This document shows positions 332 to 34,741 of a stretch of DNA of 37,655 nt, in pieces. The stretch's first letter is position 1; every line of letters begins with the position of its first letter. Position numbers and translations under genes: made by a program. The DNA is from Candidatus Omnitrophota bacterium (GTDB lineage Bacteria; Omnitrophota; Omnitrophia; Omnitrophales; JAQTRP01), in NCBI GenBank assembly GCA_028711765.1, contig JAQTRP010000005.1, positions 1 through 37,655 of the forward strand, written 5' to 3'. Below the pieces are notes generated by a model. It was not told the origin of the DNA and searched no databases. It worked only from the letters and a program-made list of their open reading frames with translations.

Positions 332-431
332 CTCTGCTTCGCTCAAATACTTTCGTTTTGAGCTTCGCAGCAGTACCCTCCTTCGCATTCAGCCACGGCT
401 CGACAGCCGTGACTTTCTGCGAAGGAGGGTA
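263..431. repeat. Array of three stem-loops between murE and murF
   Basis: Three inverted repeats follow one another. GCCCCGCG at 263-270 pairs with 303-310 and competes with an inner stem CGCGGCT 268-274 with 278-284. GCTCAAA at 341-347 pairs with 357-363. A perfect 14-bp stem joins 374-387 to 418-431 and encloses a 7-bp hairpin at 394-400 with 405-411. None is followed by a T-run, so intrinsic termination is unlikely. The first structure lies inside the murE reading frame. The array could be an inserted repeat unit or an mRNA processing/stability element between two genes of one operon. Confidence 0.75.
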
Positions 432-17433: not shown

Positions 17434-17437
17434 ATCA

Positions 17438-17495
17438 TGCAAATTCTGTACCTGGTACCGGTCCCATTAATCCGGTACCAGGTACAGAATTTGCA
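17438..17495. repeat. GTACC palindromic element, copy 2 (gcvPA-gcvPB)
   Basis: Perfect 23-bp inverted repeat: arms 17438-17460 and 17473-17495, loop GTCCCATTAATC at 17461-17472. The inner 13 nt match copy 1; the outer 10 nt (TGCAAATTCT and AGAATTTGCA) are unrelated to copy 1 but complementary to each other. A 7-bp direct repeat AATCATG (17433-17439 and 17495-17501) brackets it like a target-site duplication. A solitary half-arm GTACCAGGTGC follows at 17501-17511. Confidence 0.94.
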
Positions 17496-23880: not shown

Positions 23881-24423
23881 ATGCGAAACGACACTACTTG
23901 TAAACAGGCAAAGGAAAAGGCCATTATTTTCTGCGCCGTTATGTTTCGTGAGGCGGGGTTATACAATAAGGTGAGGGATGCGCTCTTCGGTAAGTGGGGA
24001 GAGCCGCTTTTAGCAGGTCCTGTCTTTGATTTTCATTATACCGACTATTACCGTGGGGAAATGGGCGATGGCCTAAAGAAAGTTTTTCTTGTTTTCGGCA
24101 GGTTTGTTTCACCCGACCGTATCTACTCCTGGAAGCGTTGGACTAATCGGATCGAGAGGCGTCTTTCTAAGGCCGGCATGCGCTGTGTGAACATAGACCC
24201 CGGTTATCTCACGCTTTCTAAGCTTGTGCTCGCGAGCACTAAGAACTATTTTCACCGTATCTATATCCGCAAGGATATTTACGCCGAGGTGACATTGAGG
24301 TACATCAAGGATTCTTACGAGGGTTTTGAGTGGACTTATCCCGATTACAAGGATACCCCCTCGATAAAATTTTTCAATGAAGCGCGTCACTTGCTCACCG
24401 AGAGGGTAAGAGAGTCGAGATGA
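23881..24423 (+). CDS. DUF4416-family protein
   Basis: A 180-residue soluble protein that I recognise as DUF4416 from KAIIFCAVMFREAGLYNKV, GPVFDFHYTDYYRGEMG, FVSPDRIYSWKRWTNRIE, CVNIDPGYLTLSKLVLASTKN and RIYIRKDIYAEVTLRYI. The function of the family is unknown and no catalytic motif is evident, although several Asp, Tyr and His positions are strongly conserved. It shares an ATGA overlap with the M48 protease gene, so the two are co-translated. Confidence 0.85.
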   Translation: MRNDTTCKQAKEKAIIFCAVMFREAGLYNKVRDALFGKWGEPLLAGPVFDFHYTDYYRGEMGDGLKKVFLVFGRFVSPDRIYSWKRWTNRIERRLSKAGMRCVNIDPGYLTLSKLVLASTKNYFHRIYIRKDIYAEVTLRYIKDSYEGFEWTYPDYKDTPSIKFFNEARHLLTERVRESR

Positions 24424-25547
24424 ACGAAAATATTTCAACTGCCAAGGCTTATCAGCGCAAAAAGAACTGGCTTTTTCTTTTCAACATCGTTATGACGTTT
24501 GTTCTCCTTGTCATTGTTCTTGTGACGGGGCTGTCGGGTTTTATGAGAGATATGGCCCTATCGGTTTCAACGGTATTTGTTGCCGCGATCTTCTTCTATT
24601 TTGTGTTTTTGTCTTTGTTCTTTTTTGTTTTTGACGTGGCGATTGATTTTTACGGCGGCTATATTCTCGAACATCAATTCGGGCTTTCTAATCAGCGCCT
24701 TACAGGATGGGTATGGGAGTCTTTAAAGCGCTATGTCCTGACGTTTGTCGTGGCGCTCGTCCTTGTTGAGGCGTTATATCTTTTAATACGTTTTTCCCCC
24801 CAGGCGTGGTGGTTTCTCGCATGGGTCTTGTGGATTCTTTTCTCCTTAGTATTGGGGAAATTATTTCCTGTCCTTATCGTGCCTATTTTCTATAAATACT
24901 CCCCCGTCGCCGATGAAGTTTTAAGGGAGCGGATTCTTGGCATGGCGCGGGAAAACGGCCTCCATGCGCGGAATGTTTATTCCCTGAATCTTAGCAAGAC
25001 AACGAAGAAGGCGAACGCGGCTTTTTGCGGTTTCGGCAAGACCCGGCGCGTTATCCTTTCCGATTCGTTAATCGGGAATTTTTCTCACGACGAGATCCTG
25101 AGTGTTGTAGCGCATGAGATAGGGCATTATAAAAAGAGGCATCTCTGGAAACACGCGGGGTTCAGCGCTTGTACAAGCCTTGTGTCTTTTTATATTATTT
25201 TTTACTGTGTCTCTAGGGCCGCGGGCTCGTGGGGCATTAAGGGAGCGGATGATTTCGCGAATCTTCCCCTGCTCGGCCTTCTATCCTTTCTGGCTGGGCT
25301 TGTGCTTATGCCGCTCGGCAACCTTTATTCGCGCCATATGGAGCGCGAGGCCGATTGCTTCGCCTTAAAGAAGACGGGAGATAAAGCATCTTTTATTTCC
25401 ACAATGCGAAAACTAGCGGCGATGAATTTAGCCGATCCCAATCCGAATCCCTTGATCGAGTTTTTCCTCTATTCGCATCCGTCGATAAAGAAGCGTATCG
25501 AATTTGCTGAGAGTACACAGATGATCACAGATGGGATACACAGATGA
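24420..25547 (+). CDS. M48-family membrane metalloprotease (Ste24/CAAX protease-like)
   Basis: Integral membrane zinc protease of 375 residues with N-terminal helices at about 16-40, 46-75, 105-125 and 130-155, an ILEHQFGLSNQ segment typical of Ste24-type enzymes, the zinc motif HEIGH at 232-236, two further helices, and the third ligand in SRHMEREADCFAL. YSHPSIKKRIEF closes the conserved part. The last dozen residues (STQMITDGIHR) are read from a tandem repeat that begins at 25515, so the original C-terminus was probably slightly different. In eukaryotes Ste24 processes prenylated proteins; in bacteria a quality-control role is usually inferred. Confidence 0.93.
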   Translation: MNENISTAKAYQRKKNWLFLFNIVMTFVLLVIVLVTGLSGFMRDMALSVSTVFVAAIFFYFVFLSLFFFVFDVAIDFYGGYILEHQFGLSNQRLTGWVWESLKRYVLTFVVALVLVEALYLLIRFSPQAWWFLAWVLWILFSLVLGKLFPVLIVPIFYKYSPVADEVLRERILGMARENGLHARNVYSLNLSKTTKKANAAFCGFGKTRRVILSDSLIGNFSHDEILSVVAHEIGHYKKRHLWKHAGFSACTSLVSFYIIFYCVSRAAGSWGIKGADDFANLPLLGLLSFLAGLVLMPLGNLYSRHMEREADCFALKKTGDKASFISTMRKLAAMNLADPNPNPLIEFFLYSHPSIKKRIEFAESTQMITDGIHR

Positions 25548-25560
25548 TCGCAGATGGGAA
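25515..25560. repeat. 23-nt tandem repeat at the M48 gene 3' end
   Basis: ACACAGATGATCACAGATGG (first 20 of 23 nt, 25515-25537) is repeated at 25538-25560 with two substitutions; a third partial CACAGAT follows at 25564. Each unit is itself built of CACAGATG-type subunits. The M48 stop codon (25545-25547) lies inside the second unit. Confidence 0.8.
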
Positions 25561-25581
25561 TCTCACAGATAAAAAAGAGAG

Positions 25582-25639
25582 TTGCCTATATGTACCTGGT
25601 ACCGGTCCCATTAATCCGGTACCAGGTACATATAGGCAA
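25582..25639. repeat. GTACC palindromic element, copy 3 (M48 protease-TPR gene)
   Basis: Perfect 23-bp inverted repeat: arms 25582-25604 and 25617-25639, loop GTCCCATTAATC at 25605-25616, identical to copy 2. The outer 10 nt are TTGCCTATAT and ATATAGGCAA; pairing continues with a G-T and an A-T pair outward. It lies 34 bp after the M48 stop codon and 49 bp before the next start. Confidence 0.94.
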
Positions 25640-28053: not shown

Positions 28054-28058
28054 TTACT

Positions 28059-28112
28059 GCCTTTAGGTACCTGGTACCGGTCCCGTTAATCCGGTACCAG
28101 GTACCTAAAGGC
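28059..28112. repeat. GTACC palindromic element, copy 4 (ParB-DUF362)
   Basis: Perfect 21-bp inverted repeat: arms 28059-28079 and 28092-28112, loop GTCCCGTTAATC at 28080-28091, one base different from copies 2 and 3. Outer 8 nt are GCCTTTAG and CTAAAGGC. It lies 5 bp after the ParB-like stop codon and 16 bp before the DUF362 start. Confidence 0.94.
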
Positions 28113-31979: not shown

Positions 31980-32168
31980 TTGTTTTCGTTCTTTTATTAG
32001 TCAGGGAAGTTGGGTGACTCGCCGATGGTTTTTGGCGGGGATTCCCACGCGGTCGCGCCACTGTGATCGGTGATGAAACGGTTCATTAAGCCACTGTCCT
32101 TTATGAAGCGGATGGGAAGGCGAACCAGAGTAAACAGATCCGTAAGCCAGGACACCTAAAGCGACAAG
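31980..32168 (+). ncRNA. Cobalamin (AdoCbl-type) riboswitch aptamer
   Basis: The conserved B12-element blocks occur in order: AGGGAAGTTGGGTGA (about 32003-32017), the GCCACTGTGA block at 32057-32066, a second GCCACTGT at 32090-32097, GATGGGAAGG at 32111-32120, and the B12 box AGCCAGGACACCT at 32145-32157. TTGT at about 31980 and ACAA at about 32164 can close the P1 helix. A GC-rich side stem (CGCC/GGCG, about 32020-32038) is an additional peripheral hairpin. It is directly upstream of cob genes and followed by a terminator, so B12 should switch the operon off. Exact ends are approximate. Confidence 0.93.
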
Positions 32169-32344: not shown

Positions 32345-32968
32345 ATGACACGTTTAATTTTAGTAAGGCATGGCGAGACGGATTGTAATTCAAAGCGTGT
32401 TTACTGCGGCGCGAGCGATCCGTCCCTGAATGAGAAAGGGGTATGGCAGGCCCAAAGGTTGGCGGCGAGACTGAAGGATGCGAGGCCGGACGGGGTCTAT
32501 TCTAGCGACCTTAAGAGGGCTTACGAGACGGCGGGGATAGTTTTTGGAAGTAATCGGGTTGGGAAACTAAAAGATTTCCGCGAAATGGATTTCGGTGTCT
32601 TTCAGGGCCTGCGGTATGACGATATTATGGAGAAATACCCTGCACTGTACACGGAATGGATAAACAATGTAGCGGGAGTAAATATTCCCGGCGGCGAAAG
32701 TTTCGAAAGACTGCGTGAAAGAGTGAGTAAGGGGCTTGTTTCTATCCTTTCCCGGCATGGGGAGGGGACCGTAGCTCTCGTCAGCCATGGGGGGCCGATA
32801 AGAATTATTTTGTGCGAGGCGTTAGGGTTTGGTTTGGAAAAATTTTGGGAGATCAAGCAGGATTCCTGCGCTTTAAATATCATAGATTACTCGAAAGGCT
32901 CTGCGCCAAAGGTGGTCAAACTTAACGATATTTCTCATTTGTCTCGAGGGGAGGCGGCTGCTTCATGA
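32345..32968 (+). CDS. cobC: CobC-type alpha-ribazole-5'-phosphate phosphatase
   Basis: Histidine phosphatase of 207 residues. The phosphohistidine motif is RHGETDCN at 8-15, with REMDFGVFQG and VSHGGPIRII giving the remaining catalytic Glu, His and Arg positions. The wider family includes phosphoglycerate mutases, but position directly after a B12 riboswitch and an ATGA overlap with cobU support the alpha-ribazole phosphatase (removal of the 5' phosphate from alpha-ribazole phosphate or adenosylcobalamin 5'-phosphate). Confidence 0.88.
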   Translation: MTRLILVRHGETDCNSKRVYCGASDPSLNEKGVWQAQRLAARLKDARPDGVYSSDLKRAYETAGIVFGSNRVGKLKDFREMDFGVFQGLRYDDIMEKYPALYTEWINNVAGVNIPGGESFERLRERVSKGLVSILSRHGEGTVALVSHGGPIRIILCEALGFGLEKFWEIKQDSCALNIIDYSKGSAPKVVKLNDISHLSRGEAAAS

Positions 32969-33483
32969 AAAAGTTCATTCTTGTCTTAGGCGGCGCGAGG
33001 AGCGGGAAGAGCGCTTACGCCGTCAGGCTGGCAAAGAACCTTAAGAAGAAAGTGGTTTTTATCGCGACTGCCGCTCCGTCTGATAGTGAAATGCAAGAAA
33101 GGATAAAGTTACACAAGGCCTCCCGCCCGCGTGATTGGGGGCTTATCGAAGAGGCTAAAGACATTGAGACAGCCTTGTCAAAATTAGACGGGAAATACGG
33201 GGTGGTCCTGATCGATTGCCTGGGGCTTGCGGTCTCCAATCTCATGGCGGGTGATTTAAAGGATAAGGAGATAGGGAAGAGAATAGGAAGCCTCATAAGC
33301 GCTGTCCGGAAGACTAAGCGTACCGTAATCTTGGTTTCGAATGACGTCGGGAGCGGCATAGTTCCCGCGAACCCTATGGCAAGAAGGTTTCGGGATCTTC
33401 TCGGACTCGCGAACCAGCTTGCGGCTAAGTTGGCCGATGAGGTTATTTTAATGCAGGCAGGCATTCCGGTAATGATCAAATGA
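32965..33483 (+). CDS. cobU: CobU, adenosylcobinamide kinase/guanylyltransferase
   Basis: Bifunctional enzyme that phosphorylates adenosylcobinamide and transfers GMP to give AdoCbi-GDP. The 172 residues have the P-loop GGARSGKSAYA (9-19), the guanylylation His50 in the HKASRPRDW segment, the LIDCLGLAVSNLM Walker-B region, and the signature SNDVGSGIVPANPMARRFRD. It overlaps cobC as ATGA. The 184-bp gap downstream is filled with three stem-loops. Confidence 0.96.
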   Translation: MKKFILVLGGARSGKSAYAVRLAKNLKKKVVFIATAAPSDSEMQERIKLHKASRPRDWGLIEEAKDIETALSKLDGKYGVVLIDCLGLAVSNLMAGDLKDKEIGKRIGSLISAVRKTKRTVILVSNDVGSGIVPANPMARRFRDLLGLANQLAAKLADEVILMQAGIPVMIK

Positions 33484-33485
33484 AG

Positions 33486-33650
33486 ACACGGCTTACGGAA
33501 CGCAGTGAACGTAAGCCGTGTGTCTGAATTTGACCCTTGACATTTTTCTACGGTAAATACGTTCCGAAAAATGTCAAGGGTTTAATTCGCGCATATCACT
33601 TAGCTTCACTTCGCCTGCCTACCGGCAGGTAGGTTCGCTAAGTGATGCGC
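33486..33650. repeat. Three consecutive stem-loops filling the cobU-cobT gap
   Basis: (a) ACACGGCTTACG 33486-33497 pairs with 33510-33521. (b) A perfect 16-bp stem ACCCTTGACATTTTTC 33533-33548 pairs with 33566-33581, with an inner ACG/CGT. (c) ATCACTTAGC 33595-33604 pairs with 33637-33646, extended by GCGC 33589-33592 with 33647-33650 across a 2-nt bulge, and encloses a CCTGCC/GGCAGG palindrome like that before murD. None has a T-run. They begin 2 bp after the cobU stop and end about 17 bp before cobT, leaving only the AAAGGAG ribosome site free. Confidence 0.85.
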
Positions 33651-33667
33651 TCATTAAAGGAGATAAT

Positions 33668-34741
33668 ATGAGTAAATTAAGCGAGACAGTAAGCAAAATT
33701 AAGAAGATCGATTACTCCCTCGCGGAGAAGACGCAGAAACGGCTCGATAATCTTACCAAGCCGCAGGGGAGCCTCGGCCGCTTGGAGGAGTTCGCGAAAC
33801 AAATGGTAGAAATTACCGGAGCGGAGAGTCCTTCGCTCAAGAACAAGGTTATTTTTACTATGGCGGCTGATCACGGAGTTGTCGATGAGGGTGTGAGCGC
33901 CTTCCCCAAAGAAGTGACCGCGCAGATGGTCTACAATTTCTTAAGGGGCGGCGCCGGCATAAATGTTTTGGCGAACCATGTGGGCGCCAGGGTTGTTGTC
34001 GTCGACATGGGAGTAGCGGAGGAAATTCAAAAGTCAAAAGTCAAAAATCAAAACTTTAAAGACAAGAAGATAAACCTTGGGACGAAAAATTTTGTTAAAG
34101 GGCCGGCCATGACAAAGGATGAGGCGATAAAATCAATCGAGGCCGGCATAGAAGTATTCGAGGAAGAGTTGCGGAAGGGTATTGATATAGTCGGAACGGG
34201 AGACATGGGCATAGGAAACACCACTCCCTCAAGCGCCATAGCGGCTGTTGTGACAGGCAGGGCCGTGGAGGAGGTGACGGGCAGGGGGACAGGTGTCGAT
34301 GATAAAACGCTTTCCAACAAAATCAGGGTCATCAAGAAAGCCATTGAAGTAAACAGGTCGGATCCCAAGGACGGAATAGACGTTCTCTCTAAAGTCGGCG
34401 GGTTTGAGATAGGAGGGCTTGCCGGAATAATTTTAGGCGCCGCTTCAAAAAGAATACCTGTGGTTATAGACGGTTTCATCTCGGGAGCGGCGGCTCTTGT
34501 GGCTTACTCTATTGAGCCGAAGACAAAAGATTACATGATTGCTGCTCATTGTTCAGTGGAGAGGGGCCATAGGATAGTGCTGAATTACATAGGTCTTAAA
34601 CCGGTGTTGGATTTAGACTTACGTCTTGGCGAGGGTACCGGAGCGGCGTTAGCGATGAGTATTGTAGAAGCGGGAGTTAAGATCTTGACTCAAATGGCTA
34701 CTTTCGAAGGCGCGGGCGTTTCCGAGCGGAGAGGCACATGA
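33668..34741 (+). CDS. cobT: CobT, nicotinate-nucleotide:dimethylbenzimidazole phosphoribosyltransferase
   Basis: Makes alpha-ribazole phosphate from the lower-ligand base and nicotinate mononucleotide. AAAGGAG lies 8 bp before ATG 33668. The 357 residues show LDNLTKPQGSLGRLE, MAADHGVVDEGVSAFP, GTGDMGIGNTTPSSAI, DGFISGAAAL and the catalytic Glu322 in LGEGTGAALAM. The loop at residues 121-131 (QKSKVKNQNFK) is encoded by four 7-nt TCAAAAN repeats and stands where relatives carry a Pro/His-rich segment. It overlaps cobS as ATGA. Confidence 0.97.
   Translation: MSKLSETVSKIKKIDYSLAEKTQKRLDNLTKPQGSLGRLEEFAKQMVEITGAESPSLKNKVIFTMAADHGVVDEGVSAFPKEVTAQMVYNFLRGGAGINVLANHVGARVVVVDMGVAEEIQKSKVKNQNFKDKKINLGTKNFVKGPAMTKDEAIKSIEAGIEVFEEELRKGIDIVGTGDMGIGNTTPSSAIAAVVTGRAVEEVTGRGTGVDDKTLSNKIRVIKKAIEVNRSDPKDGIDVLSKVGGFEIGGLAGIILGAASKRIPVVIDGFISGAAALVAYSIEPKTKDYMIAAHCSVERGHRIVLNYIGLKPVLDLDLRLGEGTGAALAMSIVEAGVKILTQMATFEGAGVSERRGT
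34027..34054. repeat. 4 x 7-nt TCAAAAN repeat inside cobT
   Basis: Four consecutive heptamers TCAAAAG, TCAAAAG, TCAAAAA, TCAAAAC run from 34027 to 34054, within the cobT frame. Their total length (28 nt) is not a multiple of three, so frame is kept only together with flanking sequence. Such AT-rich heptamers are unlike the surrounding coding sequence. Confidence 0.85.

Follow-up and report, generated by a model that had tools for sequence, protein, structure and literature searches.

Small palindromic repeats crowd the genomes of many uncultured bacteria, often without an assigned driver. Respective to the points of comparison considered here, BOX elements exhibit a boxA-boxB-boxC layout, and the GIY-YIG fold includes enzymes acting on branched DNA, Slx1 being structure-specific and I-TevI a homing endonuclease. 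In the portions of text available, REPINs are described as inverted REP doublets tied to REP-associated tyrosine transposases (RAYTs) (PMC3116915), and the GTAG and CGTC repeats as carrying tags, with GIY not mentioned there (PMC3733652). In Streptococcus pneumoniae, the BOX elements are presented in the abstract as folded dispersed repeats, some large ones with open reading frames (ORFs) (PMC3049150). In CPR bacteria, some insertions in rRNA genes encode GIY-YIG proteins within sequences unlike group I or group II introns, and these proteins seem to stand outside spread by homing; most of the ORF-less insertions of unknown kind are below 200 bp (PMC11270868, in the part of the text available). 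The latter report hints that insertions other than introns can carry GIY-YIG genes, although it deals with insertions lying inside rRNA genes and in other phyla, and the words palindrom, intergenic and Omnitroph are absent from the available text. Among the matches listed from the open-licence literature, the titles and abstract openings describe no palindromic GIY-YIG element like the one reported below.

The window, i.e., the whole stretch of DNA analysed, is 37,655 nt long and originates from a Candidatus Omnitrophota bacterium. In the gap between its cobU and cobT genes, an earlier note made from the letters alone had described three hairpins with stems of 12 bp, 16 bp and 10+4 bp, the last enclosing a further palindrome, and this description is borne out by the stem coordinates (H1, H2 and H3; Table 1) and by 2,000 dinucleotide shuffles, of which 13 present at least one perfect stem of at least 10 bp and none presents two, vs. 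three in the real gap. Folded as single-stranded DNA, the region reaches -54.0 kcal/mol vs. -20.6 ± 3.3 kcal/mol in 200 shuffles (z -9.99), the predicted fold being a three-leaf clover made of the three hairpins and closed by pairing of the outer ends (ATGA/TCAT). Over the whole window, 12 stems of at least 10 bp with loops of at most 60 nt are found, vs. 0-3 in five mononucleotide shuffles. A known structured RNA in the gap was rejected, as all matches there are below the gathering score of the respective Rfam family models, the one riboswitch lying elsewhere in the window (Table 1). The reading favoured here, with a probability of about 0.68, is that the gap is occupied by a single copy of a miniature mobile element of modular build, non-autonomous in the window, for which a GIY-YIG nuclease encoded in relatives would be the driver.

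Table 1. Positions of the features of the cobU-cobT region and of other elements in the window
Feature	Position	Strand	Description
cobU	32965..33483	+	ORF; gene name from the sequence-only first reading; stop at 33483
H1 stem	33486-33497/33510-33521		12 bp, perfect
H1 outer prolongation	33476-33481/33528-33533		TCAAAT/ATTTGA
Module A (H1), left end	33476..33533	-	R1 match, 60.6 bits, E 8.8e-12; layout TCAAATGA-[AGAC ACGGCTTACG..CGTAAGCCGT GT GTCT]-GAATTTGA
H2 stem	33533-33548/33566-33581		16 bp, perfect
Middle stem M (H2)	33533..33581	.	ACCCTTGACATTTTTC / GAAAAATGTCAAGGGT, 17-nt loop
H3 stem	33595-33604/33637-33646		10 bp, with GCGC/GCGC outside; encloses the nested palindrome
H3 outer prolongation	33581-33586/33653-33658		TTTAAT/ATTAAA
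Module C (H3), right end	33581..33658	+	R1 match, 62.0 bits, E 3.6e-12; covariation; layout TTTAAT-TC-[GCGC AT ATCACTTAGC .. GCTAAGTGAT GCGC]-TC-ATTAAA
Nested palindrome	33614..33633	.	CCTGCCTACCGGCAGGTAGG; in module C loop; separate dispersed family
cobT	33668..34741	+	ORF; orthologues in 10 relatives, junction read in nine
Cobalamin riboswitch	32003-32157		68.7 bits; 5' of the cob genes
GGTACC palindromes	2945-2999, 17437-17495, 25581-25639, 28058-28112		
Hairpin 5' of murF-like ORF	373-431		14-bp stem ACCCTCCTTCGC../..GCGAAGGAGGGT, 30-nt loop
23-bp tandem repeat	25514-25559		two copies

Structurally, the three hairpins form a composite unit. The H1 and H3 stems are each prolonged outwards through a conserved 2x2 internal loop, and both hairpins belong to one module family of about 60 nt, lying in opposite orientations around H2. 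The consensus of the module reads NNNAAT-TC-[4-bp stem, 2-nt bulge, ~10-bp stem, loop]-TC-ATTNNN, with a conserved foot, seen by eye in the alignments, of AATGA(G) / (C)TCATT. A covariance model, R1, was built from 20 copies of H3 type, the window copy being left out of the 21 aligned at first, and is matched not only by H3 but also by the minus strand of H1 (Table 1). As such, three unrelated palindromes were rejected as a description of the gap; the earlier note was mistaken in holding the hairpin sequences to be unrelated as far as H1 and H3 are concerned. The window exhibits the full layout (A-M-C), namely the inverted modules A and C flanking a middle stem of 15-16 bp. At the left end, the outer arm of module A overlaps the last codons of cobU and shares bases with its 3' end (ATC AAA TGA); at the right end, a GGAG directly 3' of module C is the likely ribosome-binding site of cobT, the start codon of which is located 9 nt downstream of the module end.

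The unit recurs in the genome to which the window belongs (1.91 Mb in 145 contigs, 91.6% complete). A search with the whole block gave partial matches at many sites, and the recurrent module was recognised from twenty stretches around them. With R1, 56 rows were obtained, corresponding to 49 sites once opposite-strand duplicates were merged, and one further module is present at C78 beyond these 49. Eleven module pairs are less than 300 bp apart, ten of which are inverted and facing (C62, C73, C115, C122, C108, C136, C90, C113, C4 and C78, the exception being C138), and a CCCTTGACATTTT-type middle stem as in the window lies between the paired modules at C73, C115, C122, C108 and C78. Many modules occur singly, adjoining other hairpins. 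When the 28 nt at the inner edge of the 49 modules are considered, the adjoining hairpin is of CCGCCTTCG type at 21 sites, of CCCTTGACA type at nine and of CCCGCCCTCTA type at seven, the rarer types being CCTGAGG (three), TGCCCTCCGAAG (three) and others (six). The window C module, nested palindrome included, shares 95% identity over 81 nt with a copy at C4, where the adjacent middle stem is of another type and another gene lies downstream. The unit is thus modular, with middle stems of differing sequence exchanged between sites.

This modularity bears on the view put forward in the earlier note, i.e., several independent palindromic repeats gathered at one permissive intergenic site, which is now considered unlikely. 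In line with such a gathering, at least five sequence types of middle stem adjoin the same module, and at C73, C115 and C122 an extra hairpin lies between A and M, ahead of the CCCTTGACATTTT-type stem. The innermost palindrome also behaves as a dispersed family of its own: its core pattern CTGCCTRCCGGYAGG gives 40 genome matches per strand, most sites being matched on both, vs. none for the reversed control, and an otherwise matching module loop at C86 is without it, from which it follows that the palindrome is a repeat in its own right, nested within the loop of H3. On the contrary, H1 and H3 are inverted members of one family, the relative orientation is the same in 10 of the 11 close pairs, and the A-M-C order is found at unrelated sites as well as in further Omnitrophota genomes, many copies having no spacer between the parts. 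The idea of independent families is therefore largely refuted for H1, H2 and H3, and stands for the nested palindrome. The outcome that the earlier note had set against its own view, namely the whole block recurring as a single unit, is largely what is encountered, inasmuch as the succession of inverted module, middle stem and module recurs, the nested palindrome being independent.

Within the phylum, the module is widespread. Among 47 genomes of the order, including that of the window, 26 have an R1 match at E <= 0.01. At E <= 1e-4, R1 is matched in 189 of the 285 Omnitrophota genomes sampled, scoring being limited to 19 candidates for each genome; the other 96 of the 285 present no R1 match at E <= 1e-4.

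The ends of the element fit gene boundaries. At 33 of the 49 sites, the start codon of an ORF of at least 50 codons, preceded by a short purine-rich site, is found within 28 nt of the outer end, at a distance of 9-15 nt in 28 cases, when 423 of 4,000 random window points (10.6%) pass a slightly wider version of this start-codon test. At nine of the 49 sites (raw count), an ORF of at least 60 codons has its stop codon at the outer end, and seven of the 49 satisfy neither description, one of them (C73:7884) lying beside a tRNA. Since A follows stop codons and C precedes start codons, the two modules are not oriented alike with respect to transcription. At the module ahead of a gene resembling, by eye, that of an ATP synthase c subunit (L012, C78:24170-24254), the bulge holds a further hairpin, GCCCTTGACG..CGTCAAGGGC, which brings TTGACG to 16 nt from TATAAT, an arrangement that is promoter-like by eye.

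cobT was searched for in the window's genome and in 38 order-level relatives, and 11 of these 39 genomes have the gene. Of the ten relatives among these, one has a partial cobT at a contig end, so that nine junctions were read. In eight of the nine, the best cobT start overlaps or directly adjoins cobU, and in the ninth (L085), where the start codon of cobT is uncertain, it lies at most 19 nt after cobU; the junction of these relatives leaves no room for the element. As this junction is overlapping, abutting or so short in the relatives, the gap in the window probably arose by insertion. The notion of a permissive site was partly apt in that the element fits between a stop codon and a ribosome-binding site, and less so in that eight of the nine relatives have cobU and cobT overlapping or abutting. 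By eye, the flanks of the module loci in relatives exhibit no target-site duplication. At the rpsD-rpoA junction (genes recognised by eye), an A-M-C element is present in each of three congeneric genomes, and the middle stem in L141 differs from that in L142 and L144; these differences may reflect separate insertions or an exchange of parts. In the same three genomes, the lower stems look swapped between the two ends of the element, which may be inverted in one of them.

Stem positions in the module change in pairs. In the 21 own-genome copies, 413 of 420 cells are paired, with 61 two-sided and five one-sided changes. In 68 matches from other genomes, none of which served in model building although the alignment itself was fitted to the model, 1,319 of 1,359 cells are paired, with 299 two-sided and nine one-sided changes, and the covariation score is 0.604 vs. 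0.170 in shuffles. The near-absence of one-sided changes as a sign of constraint at the DNA level is weakened by a control, i.e., the acceptor stems of 70 tRNAs from the same loci, which behave alike (234 two-sided and nine one-sided changes of 490), and for this reason the ratio of one- to two-sided changes does not separate DNA from RNA constraint. The module has a lower share of G-U pairs (6/413 and 15/1,319) than the tRNA acceptor stems (20/488), and this rarity alone still points to constraint at the DNA level. The paired changes themselves could be caused by selection on the fold, by template-switch repair between the arms or by copying during mobility.

Strong covariation, a location just 5' of ribosome-binding site and start codon at 33 of 49 sites, and the presence of the element at the same gene junction in three congeneric genomes would all suit an RNA structure acting in cis from the leader of the gene downstream, controlling translation or processing and maintained by selection on the RNA fold. 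This explanation is nonetheless held to be improbable: the module occurs in both orientations to transcription, so that the internal loop would read as GA/GA or as TC/TC depending on the transcript, the downstream genes look unrelated by eye, no Rfam family fits the gap, G-U pairs are few and the ratio of one- to two-sided changes does not discriminate. Effects of the hairpins on the cobU-cobT transcript are likely, but secondary.

The link to a nuclease comes from the relatives, where four of the 15 module pairs read (L143, L140, L158 and L135) enclose a single ORF of 75-78 codons, PF01541 (GIY-YIG) exceeding its cut-off in all four; NCBIfam provides no name for the three of these ORFs that were tried. 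In 21 nuclease sequences, M1, Y5, Y16, G18, H30, E42 and E54, among others, are invariant, and Y17 and R26 are conserved in at least 90%, the conserved Y, Y, R, H and E being presumably the catalytic positions of GIY-YIG enzymes. By domain and conserved residues, the ORF is thus predicted to encode a GIY-YIG nuclease. An AlphaFold model of it has a mean pLDDT of 93 and a pTM of 0.71. The nearest solved chains are, by sequence, the UPF0213 protein 1zg2 (E 1.1e-4) and Slx1 7cq2 (E 0.0064), and by fold, in Foldseek, again 1zg2 (E 1.3e-3) and Slx1 7cq4 (TM 0.73 over 68 columns, E 0.27), followed by I-TevI 1ln0 (E 0.43), none of the Foldseek matches to the model having an E of 0.001 or better. Like I-TevI, Slx1 and UPF0213, which provide these chains, the protein has the catalytic domain PF01541; unlike them, it has no second DNA-binding domain in its 75-78 residues, no intron or intein is seen around the gene, and the gene sits in a palindrome loop between inverted hairpin modules.

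Searching genome contigs with an alignment of the four enclosed ORFs gave 101 relatives, and the best 80 of these 101 loci were analysed. Nineteen of the 80 carry an Omnitrophota label, including the four query loci, all with modules on both sides. In the 15 others, modules are present (i) on both sides at eight loci (L204, L207, L209, L211, L213, L217, L226 and L259, the right-hand matches of L204 and L259 being weak, at 27.8 and 29.8 bits, respectively), (ii) on one side at four (L203, L210, L215 and L216, the match of L210 being weak at 24.6 bits), and (iii) on neither side at three (L257, L274 and L281, with 35-37% identity). The 61 loci of the best 80 without Omnitrophota label exhibit no module at E <= 0.01, several of them still having a middle stem around the ORF; the nuclease and the modules are thus no obligate pair, given that the ORF is found at these loci without modules. 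At 35 generic PF01541 loci of the window's genome and its order, no module is found at E <= 0.1. In the ORF-bearing relatives, the GIY-YIG gene sits in the loop of the stem corresponding to M, this middle stem being of 12-19 bp in 10 of 12 ORF-bearing pairs when one mismatch is allowed; for the remaining two, L204 and L259, the boundaries from the module matches did not fit the stem measurement, the stem of L204 being visible by eye. The window's genome (91.6% complete) holds no strong member of the nuclease subfamily, the best hit being at C112 (E 8.7e-12), and the GIY-YIG gene at C112 has no module near; an active driver is therefore not seen in this genome. Two small GIY-YIG genes of one genome (L169 at C76 and L170 at C60) lie just 3' of hairpins of CCTTCG..CTACGG type and near apparent tRNA genes, and could perhaps be further pairs of palindrome and nuclease. 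Hairpins of this type, a motif picked after viewing two of the loci, occur in 4 of 33 upstream regions of generic GIY-YIG genes vs. 29 of 1,020 random stretches, a weak signal.

In its form, the element is close to REPINs and BIMEs, as these are depicted in the parts of the reports available (PMC3116915, PMC3733652): a pair of short imperfect palindromes, inverted and separated by a spacer, extragenic, dispersed and non-autonomous, folding as a hairpin or a clover, with a driver gene flanked by the palindromes. Compared to that depiction, however, no GTAG or CGTC tag is seen by eye at the foot of the palindromes, the modules enclose a gene for a single-domain GIY-YIG nuclease rather than for a tyrosine transposase, the stems vary widely and covary, and the ends fit stop codons and ribosome-binding sites. 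A classical REPIN mobilised by a RAYT of the genome is considered very improbable. Pairs of inverted bulged hairpins are indeed REPIN-like, and the genome has two Y1 transposase matches, at C3 and C118, but GTACC palindromes, i.e., another family, flank the Y1 gene at C3, different sequence surrounds that at C118, neither contig has a match in the genome-wide search for modules, and the gene between the modules of relatives is GIY-YIG, not Y1; the two transposases were rejected as the driver on present evidence.

With MITEs, the element shares a short size (~180 nt), inverted ends and the lack of a gene, larger elements with the same ends carrying one; relatives contain such ORF-bearing elements with these modules, to which the nuclease may give mobility. 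It differs in that each end is an entire hairpin whose stem varies, instead of a constant terminal repeat, and in that neither a target-site duplication, by eye, nor a classical transposase partner is seen. The element would work like a REPIN or an MITE, without the RAYT and the tag expected of a REPIN. The BOX elements, as far as the abstract goes (PMC3049150), are alike in strong folding, dispersal and the presence of ORFs in some large copies, and unlike in sequence and layout, a GIY-YIG gene not being mentioned there.

Under the favoured reading of a modular mobile element, the bulged hairpin module is present twice, inverted as A and C, and the parts abut end to end around M. The window copy is called non-autonomous because the loop of its M is just 17 nt and without the GIY-YIG ORF, and it would be a REPIN- or MITE-like derivative of an element encoding the nuclease. 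In its single-stranded form, the unit would fold into three leaves, the extruded hairpins of which the GIY-YIG nuclease would recognise, nicking or cutting at the foot of the module; the element would then be copied to, or inserted at, a new junction, presumably also that of cobU and cobT in the window, and the insertions that survive would be those fitting in between a stop codon and a ribosome-binding site. ORF-less copies would use the nuclease in trans or be relics. Mobilisation by the nuclease is suggested by the position of its gene and by the resemblance of its fold to Slx1 and I-TevI, no excision or insertion event being observed in the sequences compared. More tentatively, and with somewhat less than even confidence, the element could represent a new class of bacterial mobile element, in which inverted bulged hairpins around a middle stem form a clover-leaf, spread through the Omnitrophota by a minimal one-domain GIY-YIG nuclease acting on folded DNA and located where a stop codon meets a ribosome-binding site, the paired changes in the stems arising as one arm is copied from the other during mobility or repair; if true, this would be a GIY-YIG counterpart of the REP/RAYT system. 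A repeat family that is abundant and widespread is linked here, through its location, to one particular small nuclease gene, which provides a testable driver outside RAYT, and a folded element can occupy a tight operon, between two cobalamin genes, without breaking either of them.

Other repeats are present in the window. The GGTACC palindromes (Table 1) have a constant core, whereas their outer 7-10 bp vary between copies with complementarity kept; the genome contains 192 pattern matches per strand, overlapping ones being counted, and the Y1 (RAYT-like) gene at C3 (L031) has such palindromes on its flanks. The hairpin near the left end of the window ends 26 nt 5' of a murF-like ORF starting at position 457, and the 23-bp tandem repeat spans the end of the ORF at 24420-25547.
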